Below, piece after piece: positions 19,327 through 64,000 of a stretch of DNA of 64,000 bases. A program made the position numbers and the translations under genes. The notes below the pieces were generated by a model that was not told the DNA's origin, ran no database searches, and saw nothing but the letters and a program-made list of their open reading frames with translations. Numbering within the stretch: the first letter of the stretch is position 1; every line of letters starts with the position of its first letter. The stretch is from Lojkania enalia (taxonomy: Eukaryota > Ascomycota > Dothideomycetes > Pleosporales), in the NCBI GenBank assembly GCA_010094045.1, contig ML986619.1:291596-355595 (forward strand), read 5' to 3'.

Positions 19327-22300
19327 ATGGCGCCCTTCATTGAGGAAAGTCCAAGTTCCAGTAGTATGGCAAGTACTACTAGTACTGAGTCTATCAGTGA
19401 TGGTGCAAGCGAACTCGATGGGAACAATGCTGAGCCTATCGCTATCATCGGCTTTGCGTTCAAGTTTCCGCAAGAGGCCGACACGCCGGAGGGATTTTGG
19501 AAGATGTTGCTCGAGAAACGATGTGTGATGACGGATTTTCCAGAAGACCGGATGAGCGTGAAAGGTCATTACCGCAAGGAAAAGAAGCAGACTACCGTAC
19601 GTAAATCATTTTCATCTAGTGGTAGTCTGCTAAATTTCCGTAGCTCCAATTGAAGGGCGGGCACTTTATCAAAGAAGAAATGGCAGCATTTGATGCTAAT
19701 TTCTTTTCCATCTCTCCAACTGAAGCCTTAGCATTGGATCCCATGCAAAGGTGGCTTTTGGAAGTTTCCTACCATGCTTTCGAAAATGGTGAGCAGGCTC
19801 TACTCATACTACTAAGCCATCCCAGATAACTGATCGATTATAGCTGGACTTCCCATAGAAACAGTTGCAAATTCAGCTACTTCCGTACATACCGGATCCT
19901 TTGCACACGATTACATGATTCAGACGACAAGAGATGTGGAACAGTTCCCTACTTATGCTGGATATGGCCTCGGTGCGGCCATGCTTGCGAATCGAATCAG
20001 CTGGTTCTATAATCTCACCGGTCCTAGTATTGCAGTAGACTCTGCTTGCTCGAGTAGCGCCATGGCGCTGGACATGTCATGTCAATCCCTTAGGACTAGA
20101 TCCTCTAATATGGTGAGTTCAAATATGCACCATCGTACTGTAAAGGTTTGCCTGGCTAATAATGGGATGTTTCAGGGACTGGTTGCTGGCTGCAACTTGA
20201 CGTTCTCACCAGAGACCTTTGCCTGGCTTTCTAACATGAACATGCTCTCACCCGATAGCAAAAGCTATTCATTTGATCACCGAGCTAATGGTTACGCCCG
20301 TGGTGAAGGAATTGCTGTCATGGTTGTCAAGCGTCTTGAGGACGCAATTCGTGATGGCAACACAATTCGCGCTGTCATTCGATCGACTGGCGCTAATGAG
20401 GACGGACATACGTCAGGCATAACACAACCTAGTCAGATGGCCCAAGAACAGTTGATCAAAGAAACATACGAAAGAGCAGGGTTGTCAATGGAATTCACAC
20501 GTTACTGCGAGGCCCATGGGACCGGTACTCCTCTTGGCGATCCTTTGGAAGCCACAGCAATTGGTAACTCCTTCCGCTCATACCGTAGTGAGGAGGAACC
20601 TTTGTACGTTGGCTCAGTCAAGTCGAACATCGGACACTTAGAAGGCTCGAGCGGACTAGCGGGAGTTATCAAAGTAGTCCTCGCTTTAGAAAGCGGATTG
20701 ATTCCACCGAACGCCAATTTTGAAAAGATCAACCCAATGATCGACACAAAGCATCTGCGAATACGTATACCGAGCGACGCGACCCCTTGGCCGTCACCAG
20801 GTCTTCGAAGAGCATCTATCAACTCCTTTGGATATGGTGGGGCTAATTGCCACATTGTCCTAGATGATGCCTACAATTACTTGAAATTGAGGGGTATGAA
20901 AGGCACACACAAGACTGCAGCATCTCCTCCAGCAGCAGATGAGTCAAAATGGTATTCTTCTAGGGTTGAGAGTCCGGCTAGTAGAGACTCTTCTGCAGAT
21001 ACTCGTAAGACGCCAAAACTCCTTGTTCTGTCAGCAAGCGATGAAGCAGGTATTCAACGCCTTGCTACGTCCTACGAGGCACATTTCGCAAAAAATTTCC
21101 AGGACGGAGATCTGCCCCCGAAAATTCTGGATGCTGTAGCATACACACTGGATAGCCATCGGAGCGTACTCACGTACCGCTCCAGCTCCGTTGCACATTC
21201 CCTCGAAGATCTCCTTAGAATAGCAACGACAGCCTCGATGGCAGTAAAGCCTCGTGGGACTCCTCTTCAGCTCGGTTTTGTCTTTACTGGGCAAGGCGCA
21301 CAATGGTTTGCCATGGGAAGGGAGCTCCTTGACTACCCAGTTTATCGGAAATCAGTAGACGATGCTAGCATTCACCTTGCTAGTCTTGGTTGTCCCTGGT
21401 CAGCGTTGGATGAGTTGAACCGAGGTCTGGATTCCACAAAAGTCGACGAGTATAGCCAGGCATTATGTACAGTCATTCAGGTCGCTTTGGTCGATCTCTT
21501 GAATGAAGTCAACATCAAGCCATCCGCAGTCGTTGGCCATTCTTCCGGAGAAATAGCAGCGGCGTACGCTGCAGGGTATATCTCGAAGCAAGACGCATGG
21601 AAGATTGCGTACTTTCGCGGCATTGTCGCTTCGAAGTTGTCGAGTTCATATGATCACGGTTCCGGCGCAATGATAGCAATCGGACTTCCCGAGGAAGAGG
21701 TGCTACCACATATTGCAGATATTCTTTCGACGGAAACGAGCAGTCTTGGTTTAAATGTGGCCTGCATAAACAGCCCCAAGAACGTTACTGTTGCTGGAGA
21801 TAGAAACCTGATCCACATTCTCAAGCATCGTTTGGACCAACAAAACGTCTTCGCGCGCGAGCTACGTGTGAAAGTTGCATATCACTCCAAACAAATGCAA
21901 GCTGTTGCAGACGAATACCTTAACAGCATCGGGGCAAATCTAAAAAGCTCTCCAACTCAATACACGGTCCCTATGATCTCAAGTGTGTCCGGTAAAATTA
22001 TTGGCGGAGATGATCTGCGTAGTCCAGGGTATTGGGCGCAGAATATGGTTTCTCCAGTTCTTTTCAGTCCTGCTGTCTTGGAAATGTGCACCCTATCACG
22101 CGCATCTTTGGGAAAGGACACTAGCCATGATCGTGGAACAGCTTGGGTTGTGGATTACCTGGTCGAGGTTGGCCCTCACTCTGCCCTACAAGGACCTCTT
22201 CGAGACATTCTAAAGAGTCTTGATAGAGGAAGTGACATAGGCTATAGTTCTGTGCTTGTACGAGGCGAGGCTGCCACGAAGACATTACTAAATGCGGCTG

Positions 22301-25300
22301 GGGCTTTATGGTGTACGGGGCATCCAGTCAATATCCGGGCTGTAAACGAACTCGATGTTATTGAAGGCGGAGCCCAAAAGGATTCAACACTTGGAATGGG
22401 TCGACCTCGCATCCTGGGAGGCCCTGAAATGCTGATAGATTTACCCGCATACCCTTTCGATCATACAGAAAAATACTGGTTTGAGAGTCGAATTAGCAAA
22501 GCTTACCGCTTCAGAGACCGTGTTCCCCAGGATCTACTTGGCAGCCGATGTAGTGATTGGAGTCCTCTAGATGCGCGATGGAGGATGCTCATACGGGAGA
22601 GAGATCTCCCTTGGACTGCAGACCATTTAGTGAACGGTAGAAAGGTATATCCAGGCACTGGTATGTTGATCATGGCAATAGAGGGCGCCAAACAACTCGC
22701 TGATCCTGAACGGATCGTGTCCGGCTTCGTCCTTCGTAACGTGGAATTCGAAAGCGCAATGGATCTCGAGGGTCCGTCAGGGACTCTCGAGGTTTTGACA
22801 TCTCTACGTCCCTCAAATAGCGATACAAGAGTAGATTCAAGGTTCAACTTCAGCATCAGCTCCTACACCGATCCGGACTGGGTTCGAAATTGCCGAGGTT
22901 CGATCGAAATTGAATATGAAAAGAGCAATGACGATTGGAATGCGGGAAAGAGAATGGATCATTTGAACGATCTTGCCAGCAAGTACCAGAAAAAGATTGA
23001 GGATTGTAACACGGCAGTTGATAAGTCGGTGATGTACCAACGTCTCAAAAACTGGGGCCTGGATTATGGGCCAGCATTTCAGATTGCGACAACTCAAATG
23101 GTGAGCACCAATAGCGAAGCGATTGCAGACGTTGTAACGTTCAAGGGAGATGGAGAAGAGTTGCAACCTCATGTGATTCATCCGGTTACTTTTGATGCGA
23201 TTGGCCACTTGTGTTTCACTGCCTTCACCGCTGGTGGCATAAAGCCAATGGCGACAAGCATGCCTCAGAAATTGAACTATGCGTGGATTTCGGACCGTGG
23301 CCTCGCTGCACCAGATGCATCCTCAGTCCGGGCATGCTCGACGATCGTTGGACAAACACCTCGTGGCTTCGAAGGGGACTGCGTTGTTTTCGATGCAGAG
23401 AACTCGAAGGAGGTCCGACTTTTTATACAGGGACTCAAATTAGCATTCATCTCAGACATCCCAAGGGAGTTAGAGCTTCCCAATCGAGCACAGCAATGGT
23501 ACAACATTGAGCGAAAAGTTGACTTATCCATGCTCAGTTGGAGTGAGGTGGAACAATACCTGCGTGGAAAGTGCAAGACGTCGGCCGGACCGATGGAGTT
23601 GGCGTACCAGTACATTGAGCTAGCGGCCCATCAAAATCCAGGCATGCGAGTGTGCCAAATAGACGCAGGAAATGGAGATAATACACGACGAATCTTTGAA
23701 CATGCGCTAGATCTCAATCATTCAGGATATTTGAGTTGCGCAAGATATAGCTTTGCAGATCGTGCTCAGACAAATGTGGAGCACGCAAAGGAGTCGTTTG
23801 CAAAATATGGAGCCAAGATGAAATTCCATGTCTTTGATCCTGTCTACGGATCTCAAACCAAACAATCTGAAGTCGAGGATTACGACATGATCATTGCTTT
23901 TGATCATAGCTGGACATTAAAAAATATGCAAGAGACATTTGAGAATCTGCGAAAGACCCTCAAGCCGGGGGGCAAGATGGTGATAGAAAGACCGGCCTTG
24001 GATGATGGGGTTGTCGTAGATTGGAATGAAGTACTGCATCGGAGTGGATTTTCTGGAGTGAACCTTTATCTCGAACCTAGCGACACAGCCAAGGGCATCA
24101 TAATCTCCACGGCGGTTGAGGAGACTACTAGCCACCAGACAATCCCCGGGGGAATTCGGATTATAGTTGTTGGGAACTTTGCAAACGATCAGCATGACGG
24201 ATTGGCTAAGAGAGTTGGAGAACTGGTGAAGCCAGATGTAGCATCGGACATTGTCCAGATGAGCTTATCCGAAGCATCGCAGTATCCGGATCTGAAGAGC
24301 TCCCTTCTGATAATACTCTCGGATCCAGAGCATTTGTGTCTTGAGACCTTGAGAAAGGATTCGCTATCTCAATTGCAGCGCATTATTCCCACTGTGCCCT
24401 ACGTTCTCTGGGTTTCCGATATGGCCGCCGAAATTGGCATTGGAGGCTCACCAGTTTCAGCTATCATTGAAGGATCAGCTCGTTCACTCCGCTTTGAGCA
24501 CAACGACACGCGTTTGGTAACGCTGGGACTGGAGTCATTCAACGATAACAGGAGCGCACGACATATATTCCAAGTCGTGGAAAGGATCTTGTCGACCCCA
24601 GCCGGTTCAAACTACGAGCAAGAATATGTTGAAGTTGGTGGGTATTTGTCTACGGACCGTATCGTGGAGGCCGCTTATCTGAGGCAAATTACAAACGCGA
24701 AGCTCGTGCCCCAGCAATCCACAACCGTGAGACTGGAAGATCAGAACTTCAAGCTGGGTATAGCCCAGATCGGCAACCTTGAAACTCTTCGCTATGTCCA
24801 AGAAGCACCTTTATCGACGGAACCACGGCCAGGCGAGGTTGAAATTCAAGTGTCCGCGGTTGCAATCGAGTCTCGGGATTACAGGAGGGCGATGGGCAAG
24901 ACTCAGAAAGTGCAATTCGGGAATGCTTGCGCGGGGACAATTGGAAAGGCCGGCCTACACAGCGGCTTCAATATCGGTGACCGTGTCTTCTATGTAGGAA
25001 AGAATACTTTCAAGTCACGAATCCGGACCCCAGATCACTACGTACGCAAGCTACCAGATGGACTAGATTTCGCGGATTGCTGTTTGTCGATACCGGCGCT
25101 GGCCGCAGCTCATCACGCGTTGGTGGATGTTGGTCGTTGGCGTGAAGGTGACACGGTTCTGATCTATCCCTGCGCTGGTTTCATTGGAAAGGCAGCACTT
25201 AGGGTCTGCCAAAAAGTAGGAGCTCCAGTGTGGACAACAGTTCACGAGGATGGGCAAAGCAGAACTCTTTCCGAGCAACTCGGTATTCCCGGGACATCAA

Positions 25301-26883
25301 TCCTATCGCACGACGCGTTTGCCTTAGGACATACTCGGCATCACCCAACATTCCATGGCGCCGACATAGTACTTTGCACTGAGCCAGTACCGAACGACCA
25401 GTCATGGGATTTTGTGAATAAATTCGGCCGGGTCATTTACATGCCATGTATTACAGGCGCGCCTATCTTGTCACCTTCCTTTCAACATATTCCCCCGAAC
25501 ATTTCCTACGGTGCTGTAAATTTTCAAGAAATCGCAGCTGAGCGCCCAATATCTTTGCGAGAATCAATTACCAGTGCCTTTGAGATTCTTTTGGCCGATG
25601 GAGGAGGGGTGCAGACTGCAGCACCTTTTCCGGCGTCGCAAGTAGTGGAAGCCTTCAAACGTGTTGGGAATACAAATGGCCAGGTGGTAGTCAAATTCGA
25701 TGTTGACGATGAAATAGAGTTGACATGTGACACTCAACCCACGACTAAGCTTGACGCTGACGCGAGCTACCTAATCTCTGGCGGTACAGGAGGTATCGGC
25801 CGCGGCATTGCTCGGTGGTGCGCCGCACGAGGTGCTCGCTACCTCATCCTACTTTCTCGGTCGGGTGCGAAGGGAAGAGAAGCCCAAGAGCTAGTTGAAG
25901 AGTTGGCCGCACAAGGCGTCCACGTTGAAGCGCCGCCGTGCGATGTGGCTGATGAGAAAGCGCTGCGCGTGGTGTTGGACGACTGTGCGATCCGCATGCC
26001 GCCAATCAAAGGGTGCATACAAGCTTCTGGCGCGTTTAAAGACATTTCCTTTGAGAAGATGTCTCTCGACGACTGGAATGTTGCCATCAAGTCCAAAGTC
26101 ACGGCGTCGTGGAACTTGCACAAGGCGCTGCCCGCCGGGATGGACTTCTTCGTCATGACGTCCTCCATGTCCGGCATTCTGGGCATGATAAGTCAGAGCA
26201 GCTATGCAGGCGGAAACGTGTATCAAGATGCCCTGGCCCGCCATCGCATAGCGCTCGGGGAGAAGGCTGCTGCGCTCGATCTCGGAGTCCTCCAGGACGT
26301 TGGCTTTCTCACCGAAGCTCAGAAAGAGCGGCTTAACCGAATGGGCTACTTCGTGTTCAATTATGAAGCAGAGATTCACGCCCTACTCGATATATTCTGC
26401 GACCCAGCGAATGCCATGTTGACTGCAATAGAGTGTAGGCCGATTACCGGGTTCAAGACCACTGCTCAAATGGTCGCCGACGGCGTGGAGGTTCCCTTTA
26501 CGTTTGGGCAGCCCCTATGGCGACACACGCAGTATGCGCATGTCGAGGAGACGAAGAAATCGCGAGTCGCGTCTACGGGGTTTGATGTCAGAGGTCTGAT
26601 TGAAAGTGCCGAAACGATGGCCCAGGCAACAGCTATTGCGACCGGCGCGCTCCGTAAGCGCGTGGCGGTACTCTTGTCCACGCAGGAAGAGCGGCTTGTC
26701 GAGAGTTCGGCCATGCATTCGTACGGCATCGACTCGCTGGTCGCCATTGAGCTACGTAACTGGTCGCAGAAGACATTTGGCGTCGAGGTCGCTGTCTTTG
26801 AGATTGTCGGTGGCGCGTCGTTTGTCGGAGTCGGTATGTCGATTGCAACGAAGATTAGGGGAGGGGAAACGGAACGGGCTTAG
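19327..26883 (+). CDS. Highly reducing type I polyketide synthase (KS-AT-DH-MT-ER-KR-ACP)
   Basis: Exons 19327-19596, 19656-19788, 19844-20112 and 20176-26883 give 2459 aa. The third intron (63 nt, GTGAGT...TTTCAG) is in frame and would otherwise read as coding, but removing it restores the KS sequence (QSLR...SNM then GLVAGCNL). KS: Cys203 in DSACSS, His in [12 protein letters not shown] and [16 protein letters not shown] with Ser680. DH: H1041 in [11 protein letters not shown] and D1231 in [12 protein letters not shown] region around 1383: motif I is QIDAGNGDN, so the usual Glu is Gln. ER around 1887: the nucleotide motif reads [13 protein letters not shown] instead of a GGVG form. KR: GGTGGIG at about 2094 and [21 protein letters not shown] with Ser2411. 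There is no thioesterase or other release domain, so release needs another enzyme. The product cannot be predicted. MT and ER may be inactive. Confidence 0.93.
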
Positions 26884-47691: not shown

Positions 47692-49511
47692 CTAAATAAT
47701 AACAAACATTTTTGAATCGTTTTCCTCCCATGATACTGCTTCTCCATTCATGATACCCTCAAGATAGCAGTCCCCGAGAATTCTATACTCTTTTGACTCC
47801 TCATTTACAATTTCTAACACGATCAGCACAATACAACCATGAATGATGGCAATTGGCGAGCCATTCTTATTTACACCCCAGGGTTTCTTGCCAATGAATG
47901 GTGAGAGTCCGAGTCGACCCCTTGCAGACCTCATAAATTTTCGACCCCTCGGGCCATACTTAAGCATAATCCGAGCGGCTCGTTATAACCCGCCAAATTG
48001 TGGAGTTCGTTTCCAAAGCCCCTAGGCTGAACCCCTATTACTTTTTCCACGGTGTCTCTGGGCGTGTTCTCGCTCGAGCTGACGACATTGAGGAAAGCGA
48101 TCGTGTCTTTTACAGTCTAGTGATCTAGGCCAGAAAGATCTTTCTTGGCCTGGTTCATAAGACTGTTCAGTTAATCTTCATCTGGGTCCCAGCATCTGTG
48201 ATACCTAGCACCGCCGATAGAATCCACATAATCTACGCCTCTCCCTCTAGTATGAAGGCGACCGGTTTTTGTAGCGTTGCTCTCTTGATCATGAACATGC
48301 CGTCGACCCTGAGCTGCATTCCAAGCAATGTCTTCCCTTATTGACCGCACGCCTCCGGTTGTGAGCCGGAATGGGGCTGAAAGAGGAGTGTTTGGCCATG
48401 ATGGCACCCAAGACGGGAATCCCTTGAGTTCGTCTGGGGTATCAGGCAATAGAGCGTCAAGGTTCGCAGACTAGAGCGAAAGGAAATTAAGCGACCCGTA
48501 GGTCTTAGCCAGGGCTGCGGCAAACTCTGTGACATTCTTTCGGATGATTAAGGCGTAGTCGGGGGTAAACCCGGAACCGTCAATCATGCCTAAATATGAA
48601 AAGAGTCGATCAAATAATTCGGAACTGTGGAACTATTTCCCCCCTTGACACATGTAACGTAGGAATCTCAATGATTGGGGATCAGAAAACGGATGTCGCT
48701 TGATATTCATCAAGATGTTGTAGCTGTACCAGCTACCTACCTCTTCACCAGGATTGGTATTTCGATCTGGTGGGATTGTGAGAAAGTCCGCTAAATTCTG
48801 GATACTGAAGCTCACCGAGCCGACAAAGAACGTCTCCGTCTTTGCCAGGAGAATCTCTTGCACAATCCAACCTCGCGAAAACCAAGGATGAGTCCAGAAC
48901 TTCCGGATAGCTGCTTCATATTTGCGATCATTTGCTGGGTTTATGAAAGTACTCCGCACGACGATGCATCGTATGTCTGGATTATAGGTGGAATTGCCAG
49001 GGGTCATTCTATCCAAGTGGGGCATCTCTCGCAACATTTTGTCGACTTCAATAACCCATTCTTTGCACAGACGTGCGCTTTCATCTTCAGGCCCAAGCCA
49101 CACTAGCACTCCCGTTGCAGCTTTGTATATCCGTGCCATCATAGCTACTTGCTTCGCTTTTTCGATTGGATCTTCTTGGTTTATGCAAATTTGGTCAATC
49201 AACGGAAATTGAGTCTTCGAATCGCGGCTCAGGTGCGGTAGAGTTTGTGACAGGTTCTTCGTAGGTCCGATGAGATCGGCATCGTTATTCACAGGTAGAA
49301 ATGCAACACGGTCTGGCCTGCCCCAAGTGTAAGAAATAGCCTCGAAGGTCACTCAACTGTCCTCATCCACTAGCTTTTGATGAACAACTAGATATTTATA
49401 TGTTGGGGCCATTTTATTGCCGTCTTCATTAGAAACTTGAAGCAGACGGATGTGGTGCTCGCTCTCTAGGGGCTGGTATACATAGGCTGTTTGGCGAGCA
49501 CTAGTATTCAT
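47692..49511 (-). pseudogene. HET-domain (heterokaryon incompatibility) pseudogene
   Basis: The minus-strand start at 49511 (MNTSARQTAYVYQPLESEHHIRLLQV) is followed by FEAISYTWG, then LIDQICINQEDPIEKA.QVAMMARIYKAA, VLVWLGP and RFWTHPWFSRGWIVQE-type sequence. These are the three conserved HET-domain blocks. The frame is broken by TGA at 49355-49353, immediately before TFEAISYTWG, and by TAG at 48635-48633; the later part (FHSSELFDRLFSYLGMIDGS, then PSWVPSWPN) needs further frame changes. The C-terminal block YRILGDCYLEGIMNGEAV lies in the frame at 47967-47692. The intact family triggers cell death on non-self contact. It is next to the CHAT/gasdermin-like pair. Single-base changes such as CGA or TGG to TGA would explain the first stop. 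Confidence 0.8.
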
Positions 49512-49767: not shown

Positions 49768-50607
49768 CTATTTATCTATGGATATCGCAGAATCATACTC
49801 TTGCATCCCATCTCCCAGTGGCTCTAGGCTGATATCAGAGATATCGTCGTCCATGACATCTTCGTCTTCGTCCTCCCCATCCCCGTACACGCCCAGGCGA
49901 CCTGCTGATGTCGGGAGGCTAGCCCTATTCACGGCATTGGCCTTCCTCCAAAAGCTTCCTTTCGTAATTTTGTAGTATTCGACGCCAAATATCTTCCTTC
50001 CGTCGATCCTTTGGCTCTCAACCAGCTCCTGGGTTCTTAAGCGATCCCCACCTATACTAGCGGGAATAGGCGGTAACCCAGCCGCTGCCAGTGCCCCTCC
50101 CGCTTCTAGCTCACCCCGATCAATATGTTTGTCGCTGGACGTTACTGTCAACTCGGCATCTTCGAGAATTAGTGTTGCTGCTGCCATAAAAGCGACGCCT
50201 TTGTTGGATTTCAGCATGGCTAAAAGCTCCTTTTTGATATCCTGATTCTCGAGCAGCGCGTCTAGATAATCATCCAACTGTTGAGCTCTCCGAATAGTCG
50301 CTTTTCCTGAGTTTAAGTTGATTTGTAGGATATGTTCTCGTGATGCTTCTAAGCGGAAGACGGCGGCTAAACGGGCCTGAAGAGTCGGAGCGCCAAGGTC
50401 TTTCCCCTCCCGCTGGAAACTGAAAATCGTCTCTAAGGGCTGCGACAACATCGCACTGAGAACGCTTTGCAACATCTTTAAATCTCGAGGTCCAAATTTA
50501 ATGGTCGGATCGCTTGGATTGGCACAAAAACGCCCCAGAAATTCACCAGCTGCAGATGGATCCAAAGGTTGACGTAGGAGAAAATAAGTGTGACGTTCAG
50601 ACAGCAT
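49768..50607 (-). CDS. Candidate fungal gasdermin-like pore-forming protein (RCD-1/HET-Q1 type), 279 aa
   Basis: A single exon from ATG 50607 to TAA 49768. The start MLSERHTYFLL is the first in frame. No signal peptide, TM segment or Cys cluster is seen. The chain is mixed, with probable amphipathic strands (ETIFSFQREGKD, RLEASREHILQINLNSG, GRKIFGVEYYKITKGSFWRK) and a helical middle. After about residue 241 comes a very acidic tail (GDGEDEDEDVMDDDISDIS) of about 38 residues, roughly 4-5 kDa. Fungal gasdermins such as Podospora HET-Q1 and Neurospora RCD-1 are of about this length, and HET-Q1 is activated by removal of a C-terminal piece of about 5 kDa. The gene is divergent from a CHAT-NLR gene, as is typical of gasdermin/protease pairs. 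I infer the family from length, tail and context, not from alignment; a conserved protein of other function remains possible. Confidence 0.55.
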   Translation of the reverse strand: MLSERHTYFLLRQPLDPSAAGEFLGRFCANPSDPTIKFGPRDLKMLQSVLSAMLSQPLETIFSFQREGKDLGAPTLQARLAAVFRLEASREHILQINLNSGKATIRRAQQLDDYLDALLENQDIKKELLAMLKSNKGVAFMAAATLILEDAELTVTSSDKHIDRGELEAGGALAAAGLPPIPASIGGDRLRTQELVESQRIDGRKIFGVEYYKITKGSFWRKANAVNRASLPTSAGRLGVYGDGEDEDEDVMDDDISDISLEPLGDGMQEYDSAISIDK

Positions 50608-50915
50608 CTTGAGTGCCCAAAGATTTTTCTTAGGATTCTTTCAATATAGTAGGTTGAAAGAGCCTTCATTCATGAGAGATGGGAGCCGTGCTGAAATTCT
50701 ATACAGCCGAACTCACGCCATTTACCTCAACTCACCCCACCACCGTGGCGTTCGCTTCCCAACATGGCGGAGCTGACGACAAATGGACGATAGCAAAACC
50801 TATATCATCCGCGCATTACCGTGTCATAATTATCTGTTTCTTCCCTTCTTCACCTCCACCTAATAGCGCTATCTATTGACTGTGTGCGACTAATATAGAG
50901 ATCGACGGGTCCAGT
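50608..50915. promoter_or_regulatory. Divergent promoter of the gasdermin-like / CHAT-NLR pair
   Basis: Only 308 bp separate the two start codons, so the promoters are shared or adjacent, which would allow co-expression. I recognise no specific operator. Confidence 0.5.
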
Positions 50916-53900
50916 ATGGGAAACGCACCGTCTTCCTTTGAAAATAATGTAGGAGTAGAAGAAATAACCCACCATCGATCACTCATTCAGATAATTGCGG
51001 TGGGTTCGGGTAACAAGCATGGTTCCAATGATTCTTGGGAAGTCAACGTTAAGATAGGAGACGAGAGCAAGACTGGAATTTGTTTGTTTTTCCCGCATAA
51101 TCTGATCAATTTCATCAACCAGCTTACGATGAACGCAGCCATTGAAAATCCTTTCGAGCCCGCAGAAGAAGAGAATCTCCGTTGGCATGTGGAAGAGAAC
51201 GCGCGCGTTAGTCCATATGAGAAGTCAAAGAGAAGAGCCGTCCAAGATGGACTTCGACGTTATGCTCATGCATTGATTACCAAACTGTTTCCTTCAGCAT
51301 TCTTCAACCGACAGACAATATGCATCCTGGATATCCAAGCGAAGCCCAAGTTTTCGTCATTCCACAAGCTTCATTGGGAATTACTCGAAGATTTGGAGCT
51401 TTGGCCGCCGAATTTTAGCAAACCATCATCAGTCCTTGTTCGTCGTTCTTTTATGGATCGGTCACCCGCGCTCTCACTACTACGAGCAAGACAATGGAAG
51501 CGAATACTCATCATCACTTCGCGACCAAAAGGACATCGAGATATTCCTGCAAGGCTTGTGTCTCTCCCACTGTACAGGTTGATTGATGAGTTAAAGAGTC
51601 AGAATGTGAATGTTCGTGCCGAAATCGTTCGTCCAGGGACGTGGGAGGCCGCTAAAGACCATTTAGCAAGGAGCGGGCCTAATTATTTCAATATCGTGCA
51701 TTTTGATGTCCATGGATGCATACAAAACTCAACGTAAGTGATGGGCAAGGTCTGAATTCTGAAATCATTCCGTAGCTCACCGCTATATATAGTGCATTTT
51801 TGAAATTTCAATCCCCATTAGCAGGCCATCCTCCAACTCTTGTCTCTGCAAAAGAAGTCGGTGTTGCTCTTCAAGCCGCAAATATTCGATACGTGGTAAT
51901 AAATGCATGCGAGTCCGCCAAATTCGGCATGGGCACAGTGGGAAGCTTTGCTGAGAGCCTACTTCAAAATGGAGTCCAGGAAGTCACCGCCATGTCCTAC
52001 GAAATATCTGCATCCTCGGTTGAGAAATTTGTTGAGACCTTCTATAGCTGCTTACTCCGTCACGGCCTAGATTTTTTGGAGTCTGCATGCCTAGCTAGAA
52101 GGTACCTAGCTACAGATAAAGCGCGAGAAGCAAGATTTGGGGAGTTACTTGATGTCGAAGACTTTTTCGTGCCAATCTTGATATCTGGAAGCCCTATTAT
52201 GCAAATCAGCGACTGTGAAACCTTTCAGGCTACATGGAACCACCCCAGGGAATTATTAGGTTCCGACTCAGTGGTGCGCAGGGATCCAGAAAGCGAGTTG
52301 CGAGGACGGGAATACGACGTTACTGAAATCGAGCGACTTGTCATTGAATCCCTTAATCTCCAAGTTCCATCAGTCAATGTCTGTGTAATTCATGGCATGA
52401 TTGGTGTTGGTAAAACCGCGTTAGCGAGGCATCTTCGCTGGTGGTGGCGGGCGTCCCATCTTGTGGAGAAGGGATTCTTTGACTTCTTCGATTGGGACCC
52501 TTTTAGTTCCAAAAAACCGCTTGATGATTCCATGAAGTGGTTGCAAGAGGCTCTGCATTGTTCTTCTGATGATGAATTGGTACGCAAACTATTCAACAAT
52601 CCTTACCTAGTGGTGCTCGACGCAGTGAATATTGTCTCTCAAAACACAACAACCGGTCGCAACAAGTTTACAAACGCGGAGAAAGAAACATTCAAACGTT
52701 TTTTTCAGAGTCTTCAAGGAGGGAAAAGTTTCCTTATACTGACATCGAGATGCGAGGAAGATTGGTTGGAAGTACCGGCTCTGAAGTATCGACTAGAAGG
52801 ATTGAACGACAAAGACTTCGCAGTGAAGCTTCTAGATCAGCGGCTCAAGGAAATGGGCTCATTAAAATCTCATAACATTGATCCAAGGACCTTCGAGAGT
52901 ATCCTGCAACTACTTGAATACAACCCTGCTGCCGTCCAGATTTTCACATCAGGTTACGAAGACGATTTTGGTCCTACAGCGCCACAAAAATTGCTGAATG
53001 ATCTCCGACGAAACCTGGTCAGCTTACCGAGACTTAATCCTTTCTCAAAAAGATGGTTGGGTCTGCGATCGATGGAGACCCTACAGTCAGGTCAAGTCAC
53101 ATGCTCACGTGTGCAGTTTGGTAAACCAGAAGGTTTGCTCGTGCTGGCGATGATCGCTGTTTGCTGTTCTAGGGTTCGCAAGGATTGGTTTGAATTTTGG
53201 ATCCGCCATATTATAGATAGCCAAGGATCAGGACAGGCTTCGGATATTCTTCTTCCACTTTACACATCAACTAACCCGTTGTTCGTTGTGCCAAGGGCAA
53301 TGCTTGTTTGGACGGGAACCATTGATCCTGAGGTTGCAGCCCAATTGAGAGAATACCGATCTTTTACTGTCGAATCCATGATGAAGCTTATCGAAGAAGA
53401 GTTCGTCAACGCAGGACTGCTTACTCATGTCTGTGGTCATCCGGAGTATTTTGATATCAGCTCATTTTTAACGTGGAATGCTCGATACATACTCCAATGG
53501 GAGAAGCCCAATATTATCATGAAGGAGTTGGCGAAATGGACTGCCCGGCAATATTTTGTTCTTCGATGTGCCGCGATGAACGAATTGTCTAGCACAGCCA
53601 TAAATGAATGCTCTGCTGAGATCGAGTTTGAGGCTCCCAACTTCCTCGCTGTTTTTGACGAGTTGATAGAGCTTGAGGCCGATAAAAGTGTACCTATTCT
53701 TCCAACGATAGCGTCCGTTTTGAGTCAGCCGGGCATGCAAGGTAAGATTCAACCTAGTTTCTTAGTTTTTACACCATTTCCTAATCTTTTTTTTTTTTTT
53801 AGTAACGGCGGAATGCCCACCGGATCCGACAGCAACTGCCCTAGATTTGAGCAACGCAGAAGTTGCGCTTTTCCTCTTATTTTCGACTTTTGCACGTCTC

Positions 53901-55343
53901 GCTCTTGTCTCAAGAAATGATACTCTCGCTGAAGAAATTCGCCGGCGATGTGAACGTTACCTTCGAAGAGTGAATATTTTGGTTGATAAAAGAAGCCCCC
54001 AATATATTCCACCAGATTTGGCTCTTCCAATTATCCAGGCCTTTGCATGGCTGGGAACTTCTAGTATATCAACTGATCCTCAAAAGGCGGCTCAATATTT
54101 GGATTTTATCCTCAACCATATCCTTGGTCCACTCATTCCTAAGACAGGCACTACAGAGTCATTACTTCTTCTAGAGCTAAATCAAATGATGTTACGACTT
54201 GCTAGAGCACTGATAGCGTTCGTATTGGGGGATTTGGCAACAGCAACAGCGTTCTGTGAAAGTATTGCGGAATCAAGTTTCGAGAGCATCAATCCAGCTT
54301 CACTGTCACAGACCAGCAGAAGCTTTTATCTTGTCCATGCTCTGTGTCGCTCCCGCGCATCACTCTTCCTTTCCGCTATGTCTCACTCTGATCCGTATAC
54401 TTCTAATCGAACCAGCCAGGAAATACAGAAATCACACGATATAGCTACTACAATCAAGAGCCTTGAATCCGAAATAAACTCAAGTCGCGATAGTATTACC
54501 AACTGGGCACGTTTGTGGGCTGGTCTTTGGGGCATGAGCGCCTTCGCACAATACCTAGGTCTAGACAGCTCTCAGCGAGGACGAAGACGATTATCAACTA
54601 CTTTATCAATGGATTCCGGCTTGCAATGGGTCGACCGTCAGTTCCGCATTCTCCAGCAAAAATTTGACTCCGTCTCAAAAGAGATGCGGGATGGTTTACT
54701 TAGCTTGCTGCAGCAGGCTACCCGTAGTGATGATCTAGACTCCCAGTTATGGATACATGATCACCTGGCTCATTACTACATGCAAACGAAAGACTGGAGT
54801 ACGGCGTGCGAACACATACAGAAGATCCGCGACTTGCAAAGCCGCTTATCCCTGGAAACAGGCTTCTTCACTTTTGTTACCCTCACAACGTTTAATCCGC
54901 TCATCAGACTCAGAAGGGACCTAAGATGGGGAATCTGCTACCTGATGACTAAGCATTTGTTCTCCTCCGCCGCTTGTTTCGCCACGGGACTTGCAAGCCC
55001 AGCAATTGTCCAGTCGAAGATGGAGCACGCCAAGATCAACGTTAACCGCCAACTTTGCCTCCTCAAGCAATCTGGAGATGATAAAGGTGTGCCTATTGCG
55101 GAGCAAGTGCTCATTCAATTGAGTGGATCTCTTTCAAAACTTCAAGGAGCACAGAGACAAGCTTTTGCAAACTCAATTGCTAGACATATGACAGCAGACT
55201 CAGTGGATACCGAGGTTAAGACAAAAGATCGTGCGCGTATTCTGCTATTAGGCCTCAATGCAGCCTTAATTATGGGAATTGTCGACGAGAATGACTTCAA
55301 TGCTGCGATCCGGTCACTCGTTGGAGCAGCTAAGCAATTGTAA
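50916..55343 (+). CDS. CHAT protease - STAND (NB-ARC-like) - helical-repeat NLR-type protein
   Basis: Exons 50916-51733, 51793-53741 and 53803-55343, with introns of 59 nt and 61 nt (the second ending in a 14-T tract and AG), give 1435 aa. The N-terminus MGNAPSS fits an N-myristoylation signal. A CHAT (caspase/separase-like) domain follows: LHWELLED, RILIITSRP, His266 in VHFDVHG and Cys312 in INACESAK, a complete His/Cys dyad. Next is GREYDVTEIERLV and a P-loop GMIGVGKTALA at about 473-480, a Walker-B strand YLVVLDAVN at about 545, and SFLILTSRCEEDW, the sensor-1-like SR motif of STAND/NB-ARC NTPases. The last 700 residues are helical, probably TPR-like superstructural repeats. The layout is that of fungal NLRs with a protease effector at the N-terminus. 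The likely target of the protease is the divergent neighbour. Confidence 0.85.
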
Positions 55344-57319: not shown

Positions 57320-59039
57320 ACCTGCGATTTAATAGTATGAATCAATTTGGTTCTGATCAACAGCTTTGAATTCTGCTAAGACCAGGAGGAGAAGATTCCA
57401 TGCTTCTTTAAGTTTTGCAGTTGAATTTCAAATCGCAGATGGAAACCCTCTATAGCTCCTATAATTGCATGGTATAGGCCCTCAGTTTGACGAGGGTAGA
57501 AGTTCATTAATGGAGGCTAGAGGAAAGACACCAGAGCAGCAACGCTTCACCGATATGAGCGAGTTTCATAGTAGAAGACTAGATAGACGAGTAGTTGCTT
57601 CGAGTCGACAAAATCTACATAGACTGGTGACCCGAATGATACAAAGGCAGAAATATAAAGTCCACAAAGCAAGGAGGAAAGCTTGTTAGTATCCTTATTA
57701 TATATAAAAAAGCGCTCGTAGTTGTATTCAATAGATTTGCGGCTTCTAAGATATATTAGCGGGCTATATGATGCGCATACGTGCACAACATGTTAAAACT
57801 AAGAGGTTTCTTCGACAGTGTCGCAATCACGTTGATTAGTTGCTTCGGTAAATTTCTAGTTCTTAGGTAGACAGTTCAGCAAGTCAAACGATTATTTTGG
57901 GATTTAATTCTAGGGTTACAATTTGTAGTTAATAGGTCAGACAAGTATATGAAACCTTGCGAAGAAATGAATTACTAACCCATGTACGGGAGGTGGGCTC
58001 TATAGCAGGATCCTTAGCGTATGCAATTGAATCGTCGAAAAGGTTCGCATATGAAATAAATAAGAGGCGCCTAAATATCAGGCAGCAGCATCAATTTGAT
58101 TGTATACTTTAACGTCCTTTTCTCTTAAATCGTTGCGTTCCTTCTTGGCGGGATTATAGTGGGATTATTGCTTCAGCAATATTTAAGTTTGTAGAGTATG
58201 CTTTGTGAATACATTATCAAATGGCAAGAGACTCTCCGCATTGTTTCTCGTGAATTTAGAAATTACGAATGAAGGAAGTGTACGGGGATGGCTTAAGCAC
58301 AGACTCCCCGTATTCAAGCCCAATACGAGGTGAGAAGCAGGATTGGCATCCACTGTCGGAACTTCCGTTTTCCCTGTGTTTGAGATTCTAGAAGTATTGA
58401 AGTGATAACCAGAGAACGAGCGTCAAGGTCGACGTAAAAATAGCTGCACACAGCCTGCTGTTATAGTATCGATACTCATTCTTTTTGGACGATCCACGTA
58501 GCCTTCTTATTCCGTTGACCTAATATAGAAGGCGAGCTTTGTAAAAAGTGAATTTGAGCAAAATTAGCAGCGATTGTACTATTATACTTACATTCAAAAA
58601 TTTTAGGCGGACATTACCTAGGCTAGTATCCTTTTCATACCATCTTACTTAACACGTAACGTATTGTAGAGTTCATCATTAAACTTGCTACAAAGCTGAC
58701 CCTTGAAGCAGGGAAATTACTGTAGCCATCGTAGCCTTAAATCATAAGCTGTATCTTTAACGTATTATTAGGGCAATCGAATATTTGATATATCGCCTTT
58801 AAGTCAGTATTAATATCTAGCGAATCGTACGCAGGTTCGACATACACTATACTCAACTTAGTTTATCTTATGCTATTTATATTTTATATCTAGACTACTA
58901 ATAATACTATTAGCCGGCGCTTCCTGGGTAACGGTGCAGCCGTACGTGCGGCTAACTGTTACCTTTCGACCCCGTCTTTAAACCTGGCACGTGGCTAATC
59001 CTATAGGATTGCCCCAAAACGGTCTACCTACGCCCAGAT
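57320..59039. other. Intergenic to repeat transition; no gene recognised
   Basis: The AT content climbs towards the right. A short Arg/Lys-rich frame at 57465-57689 has no family signature. Around 58075-58110 the text ATATCAGGCAGCAGCATCAAT resembles the first 25 bp of the TG...CA elements and may be a fragment. A less AT-rich patch at 58910-59035 is not recognised. Confidence 0.35.
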
Positions 59040-62000
59040 TATCCTTCTTAAGATAGTAGATTCCGTGAGATTAGGCTATAGGTCTCTCCAGCCCTTTTAC
59101 CACCTTAAAGAACTAAACACCGTATTATTGTTTGTGAAATCTTCTAGAGAGTTAGGCGGCGATTAATACTAAATATTTTCGTCTTAGGTTTACTATTCCG
59201 TTGATGTGCTAAGCGAGAATTCATTTTTAAATCTAAAGCGGTTTTAAACCTTCTACCTAATATATATACAGCCTCTTCGCAGTAGTAGCTGTGTTTTAAA
59301 TACCTATAGCAGAAATGCTTCCTTAGTATTTTCTTAAGTACCCTCGTCTTAAATACGAGAGGAAGTACTAAAATTAGAGCACAATTTAGAAATATAAAAC
59401 CCTCTAGGATAGAAGAAATAGGGCATTTTATTATATATCTCTACTATCCTATTATAGTTAGCCTACTTATTTAGGTATATATAGCTCTAATCAACCTTAG
59501 GTTAAGTAGGCTATTTATATTCCTTTAATATACTGCTATTTACTCTAGTATTCGGCTACTCTAATATAGAACATATTTTAGTATACTTAAGTAATAATTA
59601 AAGCTATAGTTAATAATATATCTTATAAGTAAACGGCCTATATAAGCAAGTAGTCTACTCTATTATTAAAACGTGATACCTAAGCTTTTTATAATAATAT
59701 AATAATAAAATAATAAGAATATAGCCTAAAATAAGAATTAAGTAAACTTAGCCCTTTTAGTTATTAAAAAACGCGCTATTTTAATATTTAATATAATTTA
59801 AATAACTATATACTAATAATATCTTAGAATCTACTTATAATATAATTATAAGCCTAACTTAAAAAAACTAATAAAATCTAAAGAAAAGGTTATTATTAAA
59901 TATATATTTAATTTAGATTTAGACTAGTAAATAGAGTATTATTATAATAATACCGCGACACCTCTATATCTATACTACTCTTACTATAATACCCGAACCA
60001 GCTGCTAGTAACAGCTGTTAGCTGCTAGCTAGAATATAACCGACTTATTTTAACTAAGATAGAGGAAGGTTTTACTAACCCGGCTAGCCTGTATAGTAGT
60101 ATAGACCTAGCTTCTATAAAAACCTGTATAATATAGATATCTCTATTCTTTATATAACATCTTAATATTTATATATAATATATAGTAATAGAGTTAACTA
60201 CCTAAAGTATAATTAATCAACTATATATAAGCGTCTATAATATTATATTATATTATCTACTATTATATACTATAGATAAGAACGCACTTGTTATTATATT
60301 TAAAGAGATCTAAGGTAAACTAGACTCTTTATAGTAGAAGAATAAAATGCTAGTAGAGGCCTTAATAACCTAAGAGAACTGCTATAAGTTAGACCTTAAA
60401 GCGATATAAAGAGAATTTAGTAGCTGCTAAACGGCTACTCCTCTAATAGCTACTAGTATATTAATAGTAATAGAACTATTACCTACTCTTAGCCCGATTT
60501 AGCTTACAACTCTAGCTTCTAAACAGATATCTACGTTAACTCCTAATCTACCTAAAACTATATATAACCCGTATTTCTATTCTAACTATTTATCTAACCC
60601 TCTAATATTCTCTAGTAAATATTTAGAGCTTTTATACTTTATTAGAAAGCTCTACTATAAACTAGAAGGAAACGCTAACCGATACCTAACTAAACGTACC
60701 CGCCTTCTATATATCTATTTCTATCTAGAATAAAATCTAGTAATATTAGTTAACCTATTAATAGATAATAGTATTAACTTTATAGATAGCTTAGTCGCCT
60801 TTTTAGAATCTACCTATAGCAACTAGAATAAGGAGACTATAGTATAGAGTAAGCTAAAGACCTTAAAATAAGGCTAAAGTAGGTTCCCTACTTATTTTAC
60901 TAAATTCTAACGCCTAATTATAGATACTAAACTAAATAAGACTAGATAAATTATATATCTCTAATATCCTCTCTTTAATAAGTTCCGCTGTACTATAATA
61001 GGTATTATAATATCTAGCACCCTAAACAACTATACTAACCTAATTTCCCTATACGATACTAACCTATATTATCTACCTAACAACTACCGCAAATAACTAA
61101 AGTATTATACTACTTACTAGAAGAACCTAAACGCTATAGAACTTAATACTTCTAGCTATATACCTATAGGTTCTAATAAATAAGAAAGGTACTACTATAA
61201 AGTATAATAATGCAAAGAAATCGTTCCACAAAAAGCTTTATATATAACCTTATCCTAAAGCTTTTCGCTTATCTTATCCTACCCCTAGTTCTACCCCTTT
61301 TCCCTTCCGTATATAGTTGTACACTCCCTTATAAATAGCTTAGTAGTTCTTCTATATCCTTTCGTATAAGGCCTATAGGTGTTAATAGAATTCTTAGGTC
61401 CCTAAACCCCTACGTACTCTTATATACCTCTAAGTAGATTTGTGCCGTATTTAGACCTATTATCTTACCTACGCTGTTATATTATATAGAAGAATTTAAT
61501 ATTACTAGTAATAGTCTCTTTAATAATATCGTATTAATTGTTTATTTAACTATATTTAAGTCTAAAATATACCCGATTTAGTTTAGATTATAATATTTAT
61601 ATACTATTATATTAAATTATTTAGTTATTTAGATAGAATCTTAGAGACTTTCTATCCCCTACAATTAGGATTACCTTTAGAAAAGCCGCGTAGAGTACGC
61701 CTAGATAGAAACTTAGAGACTACTAATAACCTATTAGAATCGGAGGCAACCGCTAATATCTAACTATAATTTACCTTCTAATTCCTATATTAGAACCGAT
61801 ACACATATAAGTTATAGTAAGAGTAAGCTTCTATCTACGCGTATAGAATAACTGTTACCTCTTATAGGAGGCCCTATAATAGGCGGACCCCTCTCTATAA
61901 GGCTTATAATAAAGAACCTATCTAATTTAGAGGGAAATTAGAGTAAACTAACCCTTAAAGAATAAATCGCAATTTTATAGGAGGAGATTATATATTTAAT

Positions 62001-64000
62001 ACGATAGAGAACTATTAGTTTTAATTAACCTCTATAAACTACTAAATTAGAACTAATAATATACTAAGAAACTTTTGCGACTCTTCTAGTAAGAAACCTC
62101 TCGGCTACCTTTAAGCCCCCTTAAGCCTACTTTACTAAATATACGTCTAAGATTAAAAGCTTTATAGATAGTAATAAATCTATATTTAAATAATAGTAAG
62201 TCTTAATTCTAAACTAACTTAAGATTAATATAGATTACTATTAGATAGAGTATATATATATAGCGTTAGTATAGAAATATACCTCTAGTACTATAAAAGA
62301 GTATCTAGAGCTAAAATATCTAGCTAAATTAGACTAATATCAGTTTAAGAATACTAAAGAAATAATTTCGCTTCTATAATTATATTTTATTATAGATAAT
62401 AAAGAGATAGAGGTATAACAGGCGTTTTAGGTCCTAAGGATAAATAAGGAAGAAGTATTCTTAACTTTTAAAGCTCGCTTTATTAGTACAGCTATTAGGG
62501 GATCTGTATCCTAATCTAAGTAGTTCTTCTACCTATAGGATAAAATTCTCCCCAGCCTAAAGATACTAAACCTTAGCTTTAAGCTTATATAGAAAGGCTT
62601 TTTTAATACTATAGTTGCCTACTTAATAGCTTATAATATAGAAAGAAGAAGTATTTCTAATCTTCTAGAATAAACTGCTAGCTTATAAGTTATAACTAAA
62701 ATAAATTTAGATCGGTATTAGAAGGTTTTTAAGAACTTATCTAAAGTAACCTATAATCTAATACCACCCTAATCTACCCTAGTATTAATACCTCGTTCTA
62801 CTATAATTACTTCTTAACTACCTAGTAAGACTCCTATACCTAAAAGGTATATAACTCTAGGTAATTACTATAATTATAGTAAACTAGAATACTTTATAAA
62901 TAAATATATAGTCTTTAGAGTATAAGAGATAGAGGTTAAATAAAAGAAAATTAAGGAAGAAGAGTTTCTAGACGCAAGTAAGTACTACCTAGATAGTTCT
63001 TAGATAGGAAATAGAAACGTCTAGAAAAACTCTCTATCCTAGACTTAAGTAAGTATAACTTATTAAATATCGATTTATTATATTTATTTAGAGGAAAGTA
63101 CTTCTAAATCTCTACTATTCTATATTTAAAAGGCGTTAGTATATAATTAAACGCCCTTATTAATACTAGCACCTAAGGCTTTCTATTCCTTAATTCTATA
63201 GTAACTAGATTACTCTCCTAAGCTCTATATATATTAATATAGCGCTTACCCTTTAAAATTACTATTAAAGGTTTTTAGGACCGAATCTAAACCCTAGTTA
63301 ATTAGTATATCTACTTACACCTACGAATTAATAGAAAAACTATCTAAAACTACCTATTTATTATTATAGATCTAGGTACTTAGGATTATATTATTAGTAT
63401 TAAATAGTTATATTATTTTCAACTCTAGCTAAATACAGATAAGAATCGGATTATATAGCCTTTTAAGTATCCTACTACTTATAATCCTTTACCTCCTCTT
63501 TTTATATAATTAACTTAGCTAGTATATAATAAGAAAGTAAAGCTAGATATTCGGCGACGCAACGCTCTATAGGAAAAGGACTAGTATTAGTAGTCCCGTA
63601 GTCTAACTATCTATTATATTAAGAGTCTACTAAGACTGCTAAAACTATATTAGTTTCTTATAACCTATAGTTTAAATAAACTCGGAGCTCCTATACGCCT
63701 GTATAAAATAAAGTCTAAACCCGATCTAAAGAAAGTTTATTCTCCTATTATTACTCTTATCTTAGCTAATACTTTCTATTTTAATATAAAGAGGAAAGAG
63801 AACGAGTTTTTCTCCACGTCTCTATATAAAATTGAGCGGCTGATTAAAGATAAGTAAGCTTTAGAGCTGGAAGATAAAGCTAAAAATAAAGTACTAGTAA
63901 ATCTCCAATTACTATCTAAATATTATAGATATTAGAATATGTTTAGTAAAACTGCGGCTTATTAATTACTAGAATACTACCCTTATAATTATAAGATTAT
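59040..64000 (+). mobile_element. RIP-like mutated Ty3/gypsy-type retrotransposon(s), running off the window
   Basis: The region is extremely AT-rich with TA as the dominant step and no open frame of any length. Read through stops on the plus strand, 60640-61110 gives a gag-like stretch: KLEGNANRYLTKRTRLLYIY, VAFLESTYSN, SKLKTLK.G.SRFPTYFTKF, then NKFR.TIIGI. A second unit at about 62400-62920 ends in a degraded zinc knuckle (YYNYSKLEYFINK). The last 110 bases read LLSKYYRY.NMFSKTAAY..LEYYPYNYKI, which corresponds to the start of a gypsy reverse transcriptase domain (SKYHDFLDVFSK...LPPHRPYDHKI in intact copies). No LTR is visible in the window. Two gag-like units suggest at least two elements or a nested pair. 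Confidence 0.75.

Follow-up and report, generated by a model that had tools for sequence, protein, structure and literature searches.

According to excerpts of four reviews (PMC10197012, PMC12881547, PMC10989679 and PMC9815663), a protease gene is found close to around 80% of fungal gasdermin genes; CHAT proteins make up 19% of gasdermin neighbours in one account and, in another, approximately 17% of the proteases, with NLR-like proteins among them. Fungal loci in which a CHAT-NLR gene adjoins a gasdermin gene are already on record (PMC12881547, PMC10197012 and PMC9815663), and the arrangement is known as a probable cell-suicide switch. Here we describe a divergent gene pair of Lojkania enalia (Ascomycota; Dothideomycetes; Pleosporales) that encodes a 279-amino-acid (aa) gasdermin-like protein and a 1435-aa CHAT-NTPase protein. 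The pair lies in a 64,000-nucleotide stretch of contig ML986619.1 (positions 291,596 to 355,595 of the forward strand, assembly GCA_010094045.1), which is referred to as the window and whose numbering is used below. The freshest part of the finding is that such pairs are repeated within one genome and that the gasdermin-like family shares a common charge pattern.

The pair resembles the fungal two-gene clusters of a gasdermin with a CHAT-NLR or TPR-CHAT (Q2L) protein, in which, as excerpted, a small gasdermin likewise lies by a multidomain CHAT protein (PMC12881547, PMC9815663), although the NTPase of the window partner scores under the NACHT cut-off. HET-Q1 of Podospora anserina, compared by description only, is like the window protein in its length (278 aa) and in a 40-residue C-terminal piece that the excerpted source describes as lost by proteolysis (PMC10989679). 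The Podospora protease HET-Q2 is a 388-aa S8 subtilisin-like enzyme, whereas the window neighbour is a predicted CHAT cysteine protease. Unlike the tailed window protein, RCD-1 of Neurospora crassa has no inhibitory C-terminal domain and, in the portion of the source available, works through two alleles (PMC11760362). Bacterial gasdermins match the window protein by fold (8sl0, 9a84 and 7n50), and an excerpt also places their genes in clusters with protease genes (PMC10197012); the present locus differs from these in its fungal host and its large CHAT-NTPase partner.

The gasdermin-like protein and its CHAT-NTPase neighbour

An AlphaFold2 model of the 279-aa protein, built from 16 sequences and of moderate confidence, predicted a gasdermin fold, with fungal RCD-1 as the top match in both Foldseek and VIA-align. 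Gasdermins filled Foldseek ranks 1-10 and VIA-align ranks 1-12 and the matches covered the entire core, while identity in the RCD-1 structural alignments was 10-15%. A fold comparison was one of two refuting checks that an earlier first-pass annotation, made from the letters of the window, had set for its reading, and at the confidence of this model it came out for gasdermin. A single-sequence AlphaFold2 model (predicted local distance difference test, pLDDT, of 33) was useless and had been set aside before the fold search. The secondary structure of the model places the predicted gasdermin N-domain core at residues 9-217 (49957..50583, reverse strand), in the order strand, two helices, long hairpin, two helices, second long hairpin and last strand; pLDDT is below 50 within the core at residues 58-84 and 170-182, and across the linker and tail at residues 218-273. 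A basic linker (residues 212-237, 49897..49974, net charge +6) leads into an acidic tail of 42 residues (residues 238-279, 49771..49896, net charge -15), which is the proposed inhibitory piece. The protein is modelled as a pore-forming gasdermin fold followed by a basic linker and a low-confidence acidic tail. Small size and a short C-terminal piece, both traits of fungal gasdermins, are present, and inhibition by the tail is proposed.

The gene itself (49768..50607, reverse strand) is intronless, and its assignment draws on the open reading frame, the relatives P0001-P0015 and the fold match to RCD-1 and other gasdermins. One relative of the protein shares 67% identity with it. A profile built without either of these two proteins recovered the window protein at E 3.4e-7 and the relative at E 1.3e-7 (per 30,000 sequences), with the best unrelated decoy at E 23. 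The 67% relative and this recovery indicate that the family is more than chance. Pfam, PADLOC and PDB sequence searches gave no gasdermin match, and PF04598 matched neither the 279-aa protein, nor the 15 other alignment members, nor the whole genome, in a search whose power on accepted fungal gasdermins is unchecked. Matches to CAF1A_dimeriz (E 0.00095) and REase_II (E 0.0047) each occurred in a single family member and were taken as chance. No relatives turned up when viral and prokaryote contigs were scanned by tblastn.

The two genes share an intergenic upstream stretch of 308 bp (50608..50915), from which the partner gene reads on the forward strand (50916..55343). It comprises exon 1 (50916..51733, starting at ATG 50916), intron 1 (51734..51792, GTAAGT..TAG), exon 2 (51793..53741, with the remainder of CHAT, the P-loop NTPase and the beginning of the C-terminal part), intron 2 (53742..53802, GTAAGA..TTAG) and exon 3 (53803..55343, with the C-terminal part, the proposed sensor). 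Intron 1 was the sole open-frame option among 12 splice choices tested. Intron 2 was chosen by its consensus signals, and 17 tested choices stay open there, giving 1409-1440 aa. Removal of both introns gives exactly 1435 aa. The CHAT domain, a predicted caspase-related protease domain, scores 36.4 bits against a Pfam cut-off of 24 and, by sequence motif, carries an intact pair of predicted catalytic residues, His266 (HFDVHG, codon 51711..51713) and Cys312 (NACES, codon 51908..51910). The P-loop GMIGVGKT (residues 474-481, 52394..52417) follows, and the region around it stays below every curated cut-off: NACHT 23.2 bits (E 6.7e-5, cut-off 26.7), nSTAND3 21.3 (27.2), AAA_16 21.6 (32.6) and NB-ARC 14.9 (23.5). 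The stretches LVVLDAV and LILTSR are presumably Walker-B-like and sensor-like, respectively. The top PDB sequence match was a NACHT of NLRP5 (E 0.034), and matches in the C-terminal third were weak (TPR_2, E 0.046; TPR_12, E 0.085).

These models bear out what the first-pass annotation had recorded: the 279-aa frame with an acidic tail of about 38 residues (the last 38 hold 16 D/E and one K/R), a divergent partner 308 bp away, and a 1435-aa length with His266, Cys312 and a P-loop NTPase in place. Its label of CHAT-NLR stood in part. The CHAT domain, the His/Cys pair and the P-loop are there, and CHAT lies ahead of the NTPase, the N-terminal effector position that is an NLR trait; the NLR label is nevertheless limited, because the NTPase scores under the curated cut-offs and the C-terminal part, only weakly TPR-like, belongs to no clear repeat family. 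The sequence of the partner makes it a STAND-like NTPase that is better termed NLR-like than an NLR proper.

Recurrence of the pair in the genome

Searches of the 58.1 Mb genome (400 contigs) with the window protein and its relatives gave five gasdermin-like family members, and a search for CHAT gave at least eight loci. Each of the four acidic-tailed members is arranged head-to-head with a gene that has a CHAT or TPR match, three of them beside CHAT (the window locus and those labelled C128 and C183) and one beside TPR (C298), at distances that depend on the chosen start codons. The C128 paralogue lies 373 bp from a 1772-codon frame with CHAT and P-loop, in which the His and Cys motifs read IVHLDMHG and LNACESA. 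The neighbour of the C183 paralogue, at a distance of 269 bp, is a 1261-aa protein with a C-terminal CHAT, where the Cys motif LSACCTA was located and the His pattern was not found by the motif script. At C298 the neighbour, 293 bp away, is a TPR-match frame that runs off the contig end; at another locus, C131, a CHAT frame is cut off by the start of its contig, with no family member in the 9 kb searched, and our guess is that these two truncated frames are one gene. The fifth member (C16; L039:3969-4862, 297 aa, profile E 4.3e-6) has no acidic tail like theirs, and its contig gave neither a CHAT nor an S8 match. A further match, C17 (E 0.19), was dropped after its neighbourhood was read, and it is absent from the profile hits although the locus was searched. 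No family member was found within about 9.9 kb around each of the CHAT loci C51, C30, C186 and C36.

By our own arithmetic, the 1 kb regions upstream of eight CHAT genes make up approximately 0.014% of the genome, and chance placement of two further relatives beside CHAT genes is therefore very unlikely. The natural alternative is inheritance of ancient pairs. Partner layouts vary among the paired loci: the window and C128 CHAT proteins are 28% identical over residues 78-503, which span CHAT and P-loop (E 2e-44), with later parts unaligned, and the window and C183 proteins gave no alignment (E 0.41). With 28% identity to the one CHAT protein and no alignment to the other, we do not favour a simple, recent duplication of both genes together.

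Other gene arrangements were seen around the remaining CHAT loci. At C51 and C186 (L015:6994-9048 and L017:152-2119), a caspase-like Peptidase_C14 gene is near a TPR-CHAT gene, and these may be protease pairs. Two unnamed proteins near TPR-CHAT genes (L015:1951-2808, 285 aa; L016:7159-7983, 274 aa) are candidate partners of other kinds; neither reached a Pfam cut-off, and no PDB sequence matched them at E below 0.1.

Charge pattern of linker and tail

The acidic tail was surveyed in 18 sequences (the window protein, P0001-P0015 and the C183 and C298 paralogues), with its start defined as the first ten residues of net charge -4 or lower downstream of the conserved IFxVxY strand. Every sequence has such a tail, of 35-67 residues and net charge -9 to -27, and in 17 of the 18 it is preceded by a basic stretch of net charge +2 to +9; in P0013 this stretch is neutral. 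The C16 paralogue is without the strand motif, and its last piece of 48 residues has a net charge of -1. Within this genome, all tailed members are paired and the tail-less member is unpaired. A hydrophobic strand motif in the tails was considered as a latch and proved within chance (shuffled tails, Fisher chi-square 26.7, 36 degrees of freedom), and a hydrophobic-moment scan of the family alignment gave mixed signals and was not used.

We tentatively propose an electrostatic latch for this clade of CHAT-linked gasdermins. The acidic tail of 35-67 residues might mask the basic linker until the cognate CHAT protease removes it, the exposed basic end would then drive binding to acidic lipids, and the tail itself would mark gasdermins that are under CHAT control. 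This remains a speculative proposal, considerably less secure than the assignment of the pair itself.

Mechanism, alternatives and surroundings

We take the two genes to form a fungal cell-death module, with a probability of roughly 0.8, and the first-pass reading of a gasdermin beside a CHAT receptor-like protein is supported. Judging from characterised fungal gasdermins, the acidic tail would hold the gasdermin core in check. The CHAT protein may sense a trigger through its C-terminal part, upon which the NTPase would bring CHAT domains together and, by analogy, CHAT would cut the gasdermin near the linker/tail junction. The freed basic end could help to attach the core to acidic lipids, and pore assembly and cell death would follow, in a context of allorecognition or defence. 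The whole chain, from sensing through assembly, cleavage and pore formation to death, is inferred by analogy.

Alternatively, the gasdermin may not be controlled by its neighbour, in which case the tail would regulate it otherwise, through a second allele or partner as for RCD-1 or through phosphorylation, and CHAT would have other substrates. Neurospora RCD-1 requires two alleles, with no proteolytic step observed in the part of the source available (PMC11760362), and the C16 paralogue is tail-less and lies on a contig that gave neither a CHAT nor an S8 match; however, the head-to-head placement of all four tailed members argues for control by the neighbour, and we regard independent control as unlikely. 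More improbable still is a different fold, of a pore-forming or lipid-binding kind, which AlphaFold2 rendered as a gasdermin from an alignment of only 16 sequences, since gasdermins alone occupy the leading ranks of both structural searches, RCD-1 is first in each and the whole core is matched.

A further reading frame near the module encodes a heterokaryon incompatibility (HET) domain (48633..49352, reverse strand; Pfam HET, E 1.3e-24). It reads on the same strand as the gasdermin gene, 415 bp beyond that gene's 3' end, and could be either part of the module or just a neighbour. An in-frame stretch upstream of it resembles what we take to be the start of a HET protein, and the frame is spliced or damaged, because a stop codon parts it from that stretch. 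Beginning 3.7 kb after the pair, an AT-rich block, perhaps of decayed repeats, occupies 59001-64000, with a G+C content of 27-30% to the window end against 39-59% before it, bar one kilobase at 34%. Elsewhere in the window, a 2322-aa frame (19915-26883, forward strand) encodes a highly reducing polyketide synthase with ketosynthase (KS), acyltransferase (AT), dehydratase (DH), methyltransferase, ketoreductase (KR) and acyl carrier protein (ACP) matches.

The finding adds compact fungal pyroptosis-like modules, several of them within one genome, in a gasdermin-like family that is unnamed in the sequence libraries searched. With a receptor-like protein that carries its own caspase-like protease beside its likely substrate, two genes expressed in yeast would be enough to test what such receptors sense and how CHAT releases a gasdermin. 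The common charge pattern of the tails offers a concrete hypothesis for the inactive state of short-tailed gasdermins and, if the latch is true, different receptor layouts, whether CHAT-NTPase or TPR-CHAT, could be plugged onto one executioner family.
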